Shown here: positions 32,450 through 46,212 of the stretch, piece after piece
Layout of the letters: each line of letters starts with the position of its first letter
Position numbering within the stretch: position 1 is the stretch's first letter
Origin: Promethearchaeia archaeon
GTDB taxonomy: Archaea; Asgardarchaeota; Lokiarchaeia; Sigyniarchaeales; SOKP01
Assembly: GCA_029856125.1 (NCBI GenBank)
Contig: JAHQWJ010000139.1
Span: 1-64,000, forward strand
Direction: 5' to 3'
DNA: 64,000 nt
Position numbers and translations under genes: made by a program
The notes under the pieces: model-generated
What the model was told of the DNA's origin: nothing
The model's database searches: none
What the model saw: the letters and a program-made list of their open reading frames with translations, nothing else

Positions 32450-33007
32450 ATGTCAAAAATGGTAGGATCAAACAAATACTTTTTTAAAATTTGTATTGTC
32501 GGCGATTCAGAAGTAGGAAAAACCACTATTCTTAACCAATATTTGAAAAGGAGATTCGTACCTGACGCTCAAAGAACAATTGGCTCTAATTTTTTCGTAA
32601 AATACGTTAAAATCCCCGAAGTTGATAGTATGGTTATTCTGCAGTTCTGGGATTTGGCCGGACAACCGAGATTTAGATGGGTTCGATACGCGTTCTATAA
32701 AGGTGCCAAAGGTATAATATATGCTTTTGATTTAACTAGGAAAGATACTTTGGATCACATATTAACTTGGAAAGAAGAAGTGGAAAGTAAAATTGGAATC
32801 GTTCCAAATATACTCGTCGGAAACAAGGTAGATCTTATAACTTCAGAAAATAGAATAATTAATTTAGATGAAGTAAAGCACGTCAAACAACAAGTTTCCG
32901 CAAGCGAATATATAGAAACAAGCGCAAAAGTTGGAACCAAGGTAGAAGATGTCTTTTCCAAATTAACATTAGAAATATTTAAAGTTAACAAGGAGAACTT
33001 AGAATAA
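32450..33007 (+). CDS. Ras/Rab-like small GTPase
   Basis: GDSEVGKTT (G1), WDLAGQPRF (G3), GNKVDL (G4), ETSAK (G5). Confidence 0.95.
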   Translation: MSKMVGSNKYFFKICIVGDSEVGKTTILNQYLKRRFVPDAQRTIGSNFFVKYVKIPEVDSMVILQFWDLAGQPRFRWVRYAFYKGAKGIIYAFDLTRKDTLDHILTWKEEVESKIGIVPNILVGNKVDLITSENRIINLDEVKHVKQQVSASEYIETSAKVGTKVEDVFSKLTLEIFKVNKENLE

Positions 33008-33055: not shown

Positions 33056-34228
33056 TTATGATAGAGTTTTTATCGATTTAGCCACTGCGTAAGCCATTAA
33101 AGGCGGTACTGCGTTACCAACTTGTTTGTATTTGTCTCTCATGGTCCCGCAAAACTTATATCTATCTGGAAAGGATTGTAATCTCGCTGCTTCTCTAATA
33201 GAGATTGCTCTATTTTGAATTGGATGAATAAATCTCCCCGGTGCACTTACACATCCGCAGTTTCCCGTTATTGTATCTGCTGGGGAATCTAAATGAAGTC
33301 TCCCATAAATGTTCGGGTATCCCCCTTTGAGTTGAAATTCCTTCGGTAAAGAACTATGATTCATCCCCTGGGCAATATGGGATATTCTTCTTTCCACGAT
33401 TTCACCATGATTGGGGGCAAAATGGTCACACAACTCGTCAGAGTTTTCCCTTAAATACTCCTGATAGTTAGTTAATGGTGGTCCGTTATATTTTATTGTT
33501 GAGTTCTCGACTCGCTGTTTTGTCAGGGGATTTATCTTGAGAATATCAGAAAGAGCGTCTTGAACGGTCAAATAAGAAGGTAACGCATTTTTTTCTAAAT
33601 CTGATTTCAATACGATATTATTTTTGTTAGTTTTCTGGATTTTAAAAGAATAAACTGATTTGTTTTGAGTTCCTATAAAAAATACTCGCTGCCGTAATTG
33701 TGGGACACCATAATCTGCTGCCAACAATATTTCCATTTTACAATTATATCCCATTTCTTTGTACATATTAACAACTTTTTCTACTACTTTTCCCTTTCCC
33801 ATAGAAAGAATTCCAGGAACATTTTCCATAACGAAAAATTTCGGTTTAAAGTATTTAACCCACTGAATAAAATAAAAAATTAGCATATTACGAGGATCGT
33901 CGGGTCTCCTATTTCCAACCGAAGAAAATCCTATACATGGAGGACCTCCAATTATTCCGTCTATTTCTTTGTTTTTAAGATATTTATCAGAGATTTTCTC
34001 GCAATTTAATGAGGTTATATCTTTATATAATGACAGAGTTTCAGAATGATTTCTTCTATAGGCTCTATAATAATTTTCTTCCAATTCTATCGCTAAATCA
34101 ATCTTAAAATTAGCCATTTCGAAACCTAGCGATAAACCCCCCGCTCCACAGAACAAATCTATTATATGATTACCTTCTTCAGTCATAGCAATAATAAGGA
34201 ATACAATATATAGTGATAATCTTAACAA
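33056..34228 (-). CDS. dcm: DNA cytosine-5 methyltransferase
   Basis: IDLFCGAGGLSLGFE (I), GGPPCIGFSSVG (IV, catalytic Cys), MENVPGI (VI), AARLQSFPDRYKF, QVGNAVPP (X). Confidence 0.96.
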   Translation of the reverse strand: MLRLSLYIVFLIIAMTEEGNHIIDLFCGAGGLSLGFEMANFKIDLAIELEENYYRAYRRNHSETLSLYKDITSLNCEKISDKYLKNKEIDGIIGGPPCIGFSSVGNRRPDDPRNMLIFYFIQWVKYFKPKFFVMENVPGILSMGKGKVVEKVVNMYKEMGYNCKMEILLAADYGVPQLRQRVFFIGTQNKSVYSFKIQKTNKNNIVLKSDLEKNALPSYLTVQDALSDILKINPLTKQRVENSTIKYNGPPLTNYQEYLRENSDELCDHFAPNHGEIVERRISHIAQGMNHSSLPKEFQLKGGYPNIYGRLHLDSPADTITGNCGCVSAPGRFIHPIQNRAISIREAARLQSFPDRYKFCGTMRDKYKQVGNAVPPLMAYAVAKSIKTLS

Positions 34229-34317
34229 TAAGAATAAAATGAAACTAATCTTTAATTAATAACTATAAAGCTAAGTTGAAAATTGAATAATGCATAATTA
34301 ATCCCAATCAGAAGAAA

Positions 34318-34971
34318 ATGGTTAAGGAAAGTAAATATACCTTGATTAGGAATATACTGCTAAAATGGTACGATGATAACAAGCGCGATTATCCATGGAG
34401 GAAATCAAACGATCTTTATAAAATATTGGTTACGGAAATTTTACTACAAAAAACAATTGCGTTGAACGTCTCCAATATGTATACTCTCTTTTTTAAGAAA
34501 TACAAGGATTTCTCTTCAATTAACAATGCAAATATTTCCGATTTACAACCCACGATAAAAGTATTGGGGTTATCAAATAAACGAGCTCAGATTTTGAAAG
34601 CCTTGAGTCAAATTATCGTAACTAAATATAATGGAGAAATCCCTCGAGATACAGACAAACTTAAAGAAGTAAATGGCATAGCTAATTATGTGAGTAATGC
34701 TTTTGGGTGCTTTGGATTGAACAAAAGAACGTTGTTTTTTGATGTTAACATAAAAAGAGTTATATTGAGGGTGTTTGAACCTCAAGGCTCTAAATTTAAC
34801 CGTGATTCCATGTATTCTCATTTGGACAAATTATTACCTAAAATGGAGTTTAAATACATATACTGGGCAATACTTGACTTTGGAGCCCTGATTTGCTCCA
34901 AAAATAAGCCTAAATGCGAACTATGTCCTATTTCTGATAATTGTTTTTATTTTTTAAAATCTCAGTCGTAA
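34318..34971 (+). CDS. HhH-GPD DNA glycosylase, MutY/Mig-like (candidate T:G mismatch glycosylase)
   Basis: DYPWRKSNDLYKILVTEILLQKT, VNGIANYVSNAFGCFGLNKRTLFFDVNIKRVI, C-x6-C-x2-C-x5-C Fe-S loop (CSKNKPKCELCPISDNC). Confidence 0.9.
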   Translation: MVKESKYTLIRNILLKWYDDNKRDYPWRKSNDLYKILVTEILLQKTIALNVSNMYTLFFKKYKDFSSINNANISDLQPTIKVLGLSNKRAQILKALSQIIVTKYNGEIPRDTDKLKEVNGIANYVSNAFGCFGLNKRTLFFDVNIKRVILRVFEPQGSKFNRDSMYSHLDKLLPKMEFKYIYWAILDFGALICSKNKPKCELCPISDNCFYFLKSQS

Positions 34972-35030: not shown

Positions 35031-35366
35031 TTACTCTGGTATCTTCATCCCTAACATCTCTAAGGCTTCTGTTACTTTAAATCGAACTTCCATTTTGTAT
35101 TTATACCCTGGAATCACATGGTAAGCGAGTAGTTGTTTTTGGTTTAATGCTAGGGCTTCTTCTAGCTTTCCTTCCTTAACATCCCAAACACCAATCACAG
35201 TCATACCTTCTGTAGTTGATTTTACAGCGTTAGGGATTACTTCTTTACCTAAAGGCCTTAAAGCAGCTCGAGCTTCTTTAATTTCCTTTAAATAGACTTT
35301 CGAGATATTTTCTGCTTGATCAGGTGGGAAGATATTATACGTAAATATATATGGCATACTTTTCAC
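35031..35366 (-). CDS. Small conserved alpha+beta protein (paralogue of 61252-61587)
   Basis: Shared V-x-EGKLE-A core and terminal ALxMLGMKIPE/SMALVGLKVPD. Confidence 0.7.
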   Translation of the reverse strand: MKSMPYIFTYNIFPPDQAENISKVYLKEIKEARAALRPLGKEVIPNAVKSTTEGMTVIGVWDVKEGKLEEALALNQKQLLAYHVIPGYKYKMEVRFKVTEALEMLGMKIPE

Positions 35367-36131: not shown

Positions 36132-36449
36132 TCACTTTCGCTTTTTTGAAAAAACGAGAATCGGCTTTAAAAATACATTTTGGCACATAGGGCAAGAATT
36201 ATGCTTCGTTAACCAAGCAGATACGCAAGAATAATGGTATTGGCTACCGCAGAAAGAACATTTAATCGTTCGACTTCGTCCATGCCAGATAAATTCGTGA
36301 CATACTGTGCATTGTATTCTGTCGTGTAAATTTACCTTCTTAATTTTTAACTCTCGCCCACAATAACAGCAAAAATTAACCTTTTTGCTAGTAGATTTTT
36401 GTATTTTCTTACCACAATTGGGACAATAATTAAAACTGATGCCAGGCAT
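36132..36449 (-). CDS. Zinc ribbon + C4HC3 RING-like (Nse1-type) small protein
   Basis: CPNCGKK...FCCYCGREL, then CTVCHEF-x-KCSFCGSQYHYSCVSAWLTKHNSCPMC. Confidence 0.75.
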   Translation of the reverse strand: MPGISFNYCPNCGKKIQKSTSKKVNFCCYCGRELKIKKVNLHDRIQCTVCHEFIWHGRSRTIKCSFCGSQYHYSCVSAWLTKHNSCPMCQNVFLKPILVFSKKRK

Positions 36450-43916: not shown

Positions 43917-44098
43917 AAGAAAAAAAAGCCAATAGAACCTGGCAACAATAATTCCCCAGATTTAAGTTCAATTTACTAAAATAATGATTCTTTTCTAACA
44001 TTTTTCATCAAATGTTAAAACTAAGTTACTTTTTATTTGATTAAATAAAGTAGATCGTAAGTAATATAAAGAAGAATTAAAATTTAAAAATATCTGAT

Positions 44099-46081
44099 TT
44101 AGTTTTTGTATTCATCTGAGGATTTCATTTCATCTTCATCCTCGATTTCTTCATCATCTTCGGGCTTAGGCTTATAAAAAGGTTCTGAGACTATATCATG
44201 TTCTGGTTCGGGAATAGGTTCGTATACTGGTTCCGGTTCTGATTCCGGCTCTGGTGTAGCTTCATATACTGGTTTTGATTCTGGCTCTGATGTAGCTTCA
44301 TATACTGGTTTTGATTCTGGCTCTGGAGTAGGTTCATATACTGGTTCTGGTTCCGGTTCTGGCGTAGGTTCGTACATTGTTTCATATACTGGTTCCGGTT
44401 CTGGTTCCGGCTCAGTTTCTAGCGTAGGTTCATATACTGGTTCTGGTTCTGGCGTAGGTTCATATACTGGTTCAGGCTCTGGCGTAGGTTCATATACTGG
44501 TTCAGGCTCTGGCGTAGGTTCATATACTGGTTCTGGCGTAGGTTCATATACTGGTTCTGGTTCTGGAGTAGGTTCATATACTGGTTCTGGTTCTGGAGTA
44601 GGTTCATATACTGGTTCTGGTTCCGGTTCTGGCGTAGGTTCGTACATTGTTTCATATACTGGTTCCGGTTCTGGTTCCGGTTCTGGTTCCGGTTCTGGTT
44701 CCGGCTCAGTTTCTAGCGTAGGTTCATATACTGGTTCTGGTTCTGGCGTAGGTTCATATACTGGTTCAGGCTCTGGCGTAGGTTCATATACTGGTTCTGG
44801 TTCAGGCTCTGGCGTAGGTTCATATGCTGGTTCAAGTTCAGGCTCTGGAGTAGATTCATATACTGGTTCTGGTTCCGGTTCAGTTTCTAGCGTAGGTTCA
44901 TATACTGGTTCTGGTTCTGGCGTAGGTTCGTACATTGTTTCATATACTGGTTCCGGTTCTGGTTCCAGTTCTGGTTCCGGCTCAGTTTCTAGCGTAGGTT
45001 CATATACTGGTTCCGGCTCTGGCGTAGGTTCATATGCTGGTTCAAGTTCAGGCTCTGGAGTAGATTCATATACTGGTTCTGGTTCCGGTTCAGTTTCTAG
45101 CGTAGGTTCATATACTGGTTCTGGTTCTGGTTCTGGCGTAGGTTCATATACTGGTTCAGGCTCTGGAGTAGATTCATATACTGGTTCTGGTTCCGGCTCA
45201 GGTTCAGGAGTAGATTCATATACTGGTTCTGGTTCAGGTTCTGGCGTAGGTTCATATACTGGTTCTGGCTCTGGAGTAGGTTCATATAATGGTTCTGGCT
45301 CTGGAGTAGGTTCATATAATGGTTCTGGCTCTGGAGTAGGTTCATATACTGGCTCAGGCTCTGGAGTAGGTTCATATACTGGCTCAGGCTCTGGAGTAGG
45401 TTCATATACTGGCTCAGGCTCTGGAGTAGGTTCATATACTGGCTCAGGCTCTGGAGTAGGTTCATATACTGGCTCAGGTTCCCGCTCAGGTTCAGGAGTA
45501 GGTTCATATACTGGTTCTGGTTCCGGTTCTGGGGTAGGTTCATATACTGGTTCTGGTTCTGGTTCTTGGGTAGGTTCATATACTGGTTCCGGTTCTGGTT
45601 CTTGGGTAGGTTCATATACTGGTTCTGGTTCTGGCTCAGCTCTTTTTTTTACAATGGGTTCATCAATTATATATTTTTTATCAGGAGCTTTTTGAGTTAT
45701 CGTAAATGGATTACTCTCAGGTTGTATCATTTGAGGTCCCAGAAAAATGTTTTTTGGTTTTATTTTTTTCTTATCTATTAGTAGTTCTAATTCGAAGCTT
45801 CCTGGAGTGAGGAAATCTACGCCATCAATATCATTTTTTAATGTAGTATCCCATTCAATCGTTTTACTCTCTGATTTTTTTATATTATCCTTAGATTCTG
45901 GTCTGAGCTTTTTAGTTAGTAAAACTTTAGTCTGAAATATTATCTTTCCTTGAAAATCGTGTTCCTTCTTCCCTTTAGTTGTCCACCTCAGGTGAAAACC
46001 ATCAGAATGTTTCCATAAAACATATCCTAAGAATTGACCTGAACTGAAATCTGTACGACCTTTGATCTCTTTTACATTCAT
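44099..46081 (-). CDS. N-terminal globular domain + very long Pro/Glu/Val/Tyr repeat protein
   Basis: True start probably ATG at 46081 ([12 protein letters not shown]); ([12 protein letters not shown])n over about 470 aa. Confidence 0.75.
44190..45640. repeat. In-frame tandem repeat array (ggttcatatactggttctggttctggcgta-like units)
   Basis: Direct reading; units vary in length by multiples of 3 or 6 nt. Confidence 0.95.
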
Positions 46082-46212
46082 TTTTATTTCTCTTAAATTA
46101 TGAAGTAATTTCAGATAAATTATGTAACAATTTGTTAATAAATTTTTACTAAACGAAAAAGTATTTGAGATATGTTTTGTTCTATTTCTTATTAAAAAAT
46201 TAGGTAACAAAA

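Follow-up and report, generated by a model that had tools for sequence, protein, structure and literature searches.

A divergent gene pair in a Lokiarchaeal genome, in which an m5C DNA methyltransferase is transcribed away from an HhH-GPD protein predicted to be a Mig-type T:G mismatch glycosylase, probably forms a two-gene module that combines an orphan methyltransferase with dedicated T:G repair, as a new Asgard member of the Mig/restriction-modification (R-M) kind. The pair lies within a stretch of 64,000 nucleotides, hereafter the window, from genome G000 (3.69 Mb, 153 contigs), whose close relatives are named Candidatus Lokiarchaeota. The locus comprises the following features, in window coordinates:

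33056..34186, minus strand: m5C DNA methyltransferase, 376 aa from the ATG at 34186 (PF00145, E 5.6e-73, 246.6 bits)
33935..33949, minus strand: methyltransferase motif IV (GGPPC), which holds the catalytic Cys (motif scan)
34187..34317, no strand assigned: divergent intergenic (promoter) region, 131 bp
34318..34971, plus strand: predicted Mig-type HhH-GPD 4Fe-4S mismatch glycosylase, 217 aa (PF00730, E 3.4e-11; best PDB match 1kea; AlphaFold pLDDT 96)

Both open reading frames and their Pfam matches bear out the first-pass annotation, which had described a C5-cytosine methyltransferase divergent from an HhH-GPD protein. The methyltransferase, which likely starts at the ATG at 34186, the TTG at 34228 (giving a 390-aa version) being less likely, shows in the motif scan the complete set of motifs I, IV (GGPPC), VI (ENV), VIII, IX and X. 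No second PF00145 gene was found in the 3.69 Mb of G000. Examination of the DNA fold of the intergenic region (34187..34317) revealed no notable structure. Purifying selection acts on both genes (dN/dS 0.09-0.26), and the pair is therefore far beyond what chance would leave. When G000 and G017 are compared (window 34200-34900 versus L037), the glycosylase alone is strongly diverged, with a dS of 2.1 versus 0.28-0.63 for the methyltransferase and flanks, which suggests an in-place allele replacement of the glycosylase between both genomes. Elsewhere in the window, a small RING-finger-like protein (36132-36449; zf-RING_2, E 5e-7) is encoded in this archaeon near a Ras-like small GTPase (32450-33007), while positions 44001-46000, over a long minus-strand ORF (44099-46210), reach a local GC of up to 0.42 with an AT skew of -0.35.

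Alignment of the glycosylase with Mig, MutY and EndoIII places its main residues as follows, all on the plus strand:

34435..34437, plus strand: Glu40, equivalent to Mig Glu42
34459..34461, plus strand: Ala48, equivalent to Mig Ala50, at the position of MutY Val45 (role from PMC2714593)
34687..34689, plus strand: Tyr124, equivalent to Mig Tyr126, at the position of EndoIII Lys120
34741..34743, plus strand: catalytic Asp142, equivalent to Mig Asp144
34864..34866, plus strand: Trp183, at the position of Mig Leu187 and MutY Gln182, a fixed Trp in the orthologue group
34894..34944, plus strand: 4Fe-4S cluster loop C193-x6-C200-x2-C203-x5-C209

The Fe-S loop, the Tyr at the EndoIII Lys120 position and the conserved Asp are as originally described, C193, C200, C203, C209, Tyr124 and Asp142 being invariant or nearly so in an alignment of 42 sequences. 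In Mig numbering the window glycosylase reads Y27, R30, E42, K47, A50, Y126, D144 and W187, and its Ala48, Trp183, Glu40, Tyr124, Asp142 and Arg28 fit Mig and not MutY. Among solved structures, Mig.MthI (1kea) is the top phmmer match (5.4e-42, 147 bits), followed by E. coli MutY (88 bits, 5e-24) and EndoIII (48-62 bits). The AlphaFold model (pLDDT 96) likewise has 1kea as its best Foldseek match (TM 0.90, rmsd 2.1), with MutY cores close behind. Trp at the Mig Leu187 position has, to our knowledge, no characterised precedent. It nonetheless falls within the family range, since nearly all methyltransferase-linked homologues have Leu, Trp, Tyr or Phe at this position.

The Tyr in place of EndoIII Lys120 had been advanced as the mark of a Mig enzyme. 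It does set the protein apart from EndoIII, but BsMutY also carries Tyr (Y126) at this position (PMC2714593), so that MutY is not excluded, and Tyr124 was consequently discarded as proof of the Mig type. For that reason the typing rests better on the missing MutY determinants and on the absence from this 217-aa protein of a C-terminal NUDIX domain. Val45 and Gln182 are the adenine determinants of MutY, and the A50V/L187Q substitutions turn Mig into an A/G glycosylase (PMC2714593); in the window protein both determinants are replaced, by Ala48 and Trp183, so that its specificity residues are Mig-like, in line with the proposal of the first-pass annotation. Altogether, the best reading of residues, sequence matches and modelled fold is that of a predicted Mig-type T:G mismatch glycosylase.

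A MutY-type adenine glycosylase acting on A:G or A:oxoG, with the methyltransferase as a chance neighbour, is an alternative that we judge highly improbable. MutY and MUTYH share with the window protein the HhH-GPD 4Fe-4S core and, in some members, Tyr at the Lys120 position, but differ from it by the NUDIX domain and by conservation of Val45 and Gln182. The best NCBIfam match of the protein is mutY TIGR01084, far under its cut-off (147 versus 286 bits), and Mig.MthI is itself weakly active on A:G (PMC2714593). Placement within MutY, named at the outset as the phylogenetic outcome that would speak against Mig, found weak opposition: MutY forms its own clade (support 98/98) with the window protein outside, but a clade uniting the window protein with MutY is not rejected by an AU test (p 0.50), and AU tests of clades generally gave p about 0.5. 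The window group adjoins Mig as sister in one tree (SH-aLRT 90), the more careful tree leaving this placement unsettled. On the other hand, G000 already encodes a clusterless MutYX besides an Nth with Lys at the EndoIII Lys120 position, these being its other HhH-GPD genes, and the genomic neighbourhoods considered below also argue against MutY. The MutYX-type adenine glycosylase (L002, G000:C5:9247-9804) has 8uuc as best match, and MutYX-like genes occur in roughly every second related genome that was searched.

Linkage of the glycosylase to a methyltransferase is strongly non-random and recurs in bacteria, archaea and viral contigs. Orthologues were found in 15 of 58 related genomes, 11 of the 15 with the methyltransferase adjacent and divergent, while the contig with the methyltransferase of G010 breaks off at the point at which a glycosylase gene would come next. 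Methyltransferases adjoin 21 of 36 Mig-like genes versus 0 of 73 Nth and MutYX genes (Fisher p 4e-13), a contrast that weighs against MutY. In a named survey of GTDB genomes, whose search pattern by itself favours Mig-type over MutY, an m5C methyltransferase lies no more than 1 kb away at 43 of the 80 Mig-like loci, two of these being single fused proteins. Besides divergent pairs, the linked genes include overlapping ones and fusions, the latter being single ORFs with the m5C methyltransferase N-terminal and the Mig-type glycosylase C-terminal in a Planctomycetota MAG (L130:280-2070) and a Chloroflexi MAG (L131:913-2838), which are placed apart from each other in the tree. The three viral contigs (IMG/VR) with a Mig-type gene all carry a methyltransferase as well, of PF00145 type and adjoining in two (L158, L160) and about 2.4 kb away in the third (L159). 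In other Lokiarchaea (L053, L150, L155), a three-gene cluster joins a D12-class adenine methyltransferase to a Mig-type glycosylase and an m5C methyltransferase. With Mig.MthI closest by sequence and fold, Mig-like residues, non-random linkage and fusions, the earlier idea of a methylation-plus-deamination-repair module is sustained.

This linkage also bears on whether the enzyme is instead a glycosylase for U:G and T:G repair in general, of the Pa-MIG kind, in an archaeon devoid of UDG, the methyltransferase being incidental. UDG-superfamily (PF03167), NucS (PF01939) and ExoIII-type (PF03372) genes were not found in G000, where AP_endonuc_2 gave three matches; neither UDG nor NucS thus provides an evident rival on T:G or U:G. 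Moreover, the glycosylase is under purifying selection in two genomes with no PF00145 gene (G008, G021). Both points favour general repair, but a linkage far over chance, expressed in divergent pairs, overlapping genes and fusions, and several near-complete congeners without the glycosylase gene make it an unlikely account.

In congeners the pair occupies a conserved chromosomal site, between the small GTPase gene and the gene at 35031. G006, G007, G008 and G021 keep the glycosylase at this site, from which the methyltransferase is gone; G006 and G007 have elsewhere a 65% identical methyltransferase copy with a very similar target-recognition region, while no PF00145 gene was found anywhere in G008 or G021. 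Second, solo methyltransferase paralogues, 63-68% identical, occur in G009:C69, G012:C240, G006:C101 and G007:C81, those of G006 and G007, the ones aligned, having nearly identical recognition regions.

Among the neighbours checked with Pfam and PADLOC and by synteny in congeners, no restriction nuclease adjoins the pair. The pair is hence not a complete R-M system, and a type II system was discarded, as Pfam and PADLOC place no cognate restriction endonuclease next to it; the methyltransferase is accordingly best read as an orphan, either an R-M remnant or one with an epigenetic role. A PADLOC match of the glycosylase to a 'Type II nicking endonuclease' (PDLC03398) was set aside as evidence of nicking, because that model is built on Mig.MthI and also matches MutY and Nth.

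A further alternative is that the HhH-GPD protein does not process mismatches but cuts methylated or unmethylated target sites, as a base-excision restriction enzyme or an m5C demethylase. Plant ROS1 and DME are HhH-GPD enzymes that excise m5C, which lends the idea some plausibility, but the Lys of such bifunctional ROS1-type enzymes is missing here. PabI, with its HALFPIPE fold, is unrelated to the window glycosylase, whose fold and pocket are those of Mig. PabI restriction glycosylases do pair with methyltransferases (PMC10273834), and self-restriction would also deplete ACGT, the tetramer discussed below; yet a restriction glycosylase left without its methylase should be toxic, and the gene is intact in G008 and G021. 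We regard this alternative as extremely improbable.

Known systems provide close parallels to a Mig-type enzyme paired with an m5C methyltransferase. Mig.MthI, of the MthTI R-M system on Methanothermobacter plasmid pFV1, resembles the window glycosylase in its 4Fe-4S cluster, length of about 220 aa and conserved A50, Y126, D144, E42 and R30, although they are 34% identical and Trp, Tyr and Lys replace Leu187, Phe27 and Arg47 in the window protein. The pFV1 mig gene is divergent from NgoPII-type R-M genes, including an m5C methyltransferase, similarly to the window pair; M.MthTI and the window methyltransferase are 31% identical, with GGCC and a predicted ACGT as respective targets, and pFV1 carries a plasmid R-M system, whereas the Lokiarchaeal pair is chromosomal, syntenic and free of a restriction endonuclease gene. 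On Caldicellulosiruptor pCALKR01 the methyltransferase (minus strand) is also directly divergent from Mig (plus strand), this being, unlike the window, a bacterial plasmid with an adjacent PLD-type restriction endonuclease. Vsr, paired with Dcm-type methyltransferases, similarly serves T:G repair at m5C deamination sites from a gene adjoining the methyltransferase, but this very-short-patch endonuclease has an unrelated nuclease fold and nicks DNA.

The most likely target of the methyltransferase is ACGT, as this tetramer is depleted in genomes with the pair and not in most congeners without it. When genomes with the methyltransferase (MTase+) and congeners without it (MTase-) were compared, ACGT alone stood out among 136 tetramers (z -8.7), with observed/expected (o/e) ratios of 0.48, 0.51 and 0.48 versus 0.99, 0.91 and 0.96, and its loss was uniform across flanking bases. 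In the extended set, o/e ranged from 0.24 to 0.65 in 13 MTase+ genomes versus 0.90-1.02 in five lacking both genes, although the MTase+ genomes belong mostly to one genus clade with its own codon bias, so that the contrast reflects few independent events (the genus clade plus G035, of another genus) and phylogenetic confounding and restriction avoidance may contribute to it. ACGT ranked first or second among the most depleted of the 136 tetramers in all 11 MTase+ genomes ranked, and synonymous choice followed the same trend, with ratios for C-ending codons before GT of 0.24-0.63 in MTase+ versus 0.65-1.10 in MTase- genomes. Two glycosylase-only genomes still show low o/e values (0.52 and 0.42), as expected after recent methyltransferase loss. 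Against the contrast, the o/e value of L067 is only 0.70 (25/36), and G023, where neither gene was found, is somewhat depleted at 0.62 (19/31), the latter in a small sample. GGCC, considered by analogy with MthTI, was rejected as target, since its deficit in MTase+ genomes is slight (z -1.9), and no ACGT-type restriction endonuclease was found beside annotated plasmid homologues of the methyltransferase.

M.Hpy99XI, for which we know of no Mig partner, provides a parallel at the level of the predicted motif. This Helicobacter pylori enzyme places m5C at ACGT, and its ACGT depletion is linked to m5C deamination, sites being lost to ATGT/ACAT (PMC10423294). Deamination may similarly explain the Lokiarchaeal depletion, with ACAT/ATGT, the deamination product, slightly raised in MTase+ genomes. 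Alternatively, the genomes could have shed ACGT to escape a restriction enzyme for this site, past or unlinked, or the loss could be a lineage-specific quirk, a possibility that deserves weight even if we think it the unlikelier cause. Diff-in-diff analysis of the Thr codons that replace ACG before T shows ACA and ACT rising equally, which does not separate deamination from avoidance, and MTase+ genomes have a different codon bias in common; on the contrary, the rise of ACAT/ATGT is in the direction expected for deamination, no restriction nuclease adjoins the pair, the genome has a single PF00145 gene, and the strongest depletion (o/e 0.24) is that of G035, from a second genus. If deamination is the cause, losing roughly half of the ACGT sites implies that repair works incompletely or was at times absent.

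Under the preferred reading of methylation with dedicated repair, the methyltransferase would place m5C in a short palindrome, most likely A-m5C-G-T, whose hydrolytic deamination would leave T opposite G. The Mig-type glycosylase would flip this T out and hydrolyse its glycosidic bond via Asp142, probably as a monofunctional enzyme because the Schiff-base Lys has given way to Tyr124, and an Nfo-type AP endonuclease followed by base excision repair and resynthesis would restore C:G. A broader picture can be offered tentatively and is rather doubtful as a whole: where the methyltransferase is lost, the glycosylase would outlive it, and Lokiarchaea would possess a restriction-free, chromosomally inherited m5C system at ACGT (CpG-containing), served by a T:G repair enzyme of its own, kept for epigenetic or regulatory purposes and leaving a readable genome-wide deamination scar.

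Asgard archaea are the closest archaeal relatives of eukaryotes, and the pair described here would extend to them, without a restriction enzyme, the single well-studied Mig/methyltransferase pairing, that of the thermophile plasmid pFV1. ACGT depletion provides a specific and cheap prediction of the methylated motif. Since neither UDG-superfamily nor NucS genes were found in G000, the Mig-type enzyme may be the glycosylase on which this genome chiefly relies for deaminated cytosine facing G, and the genomes that have naturally lost the methyltransferase offer a way to study how a genome is shaped by m5C deamination and by the repair dedicated to it.
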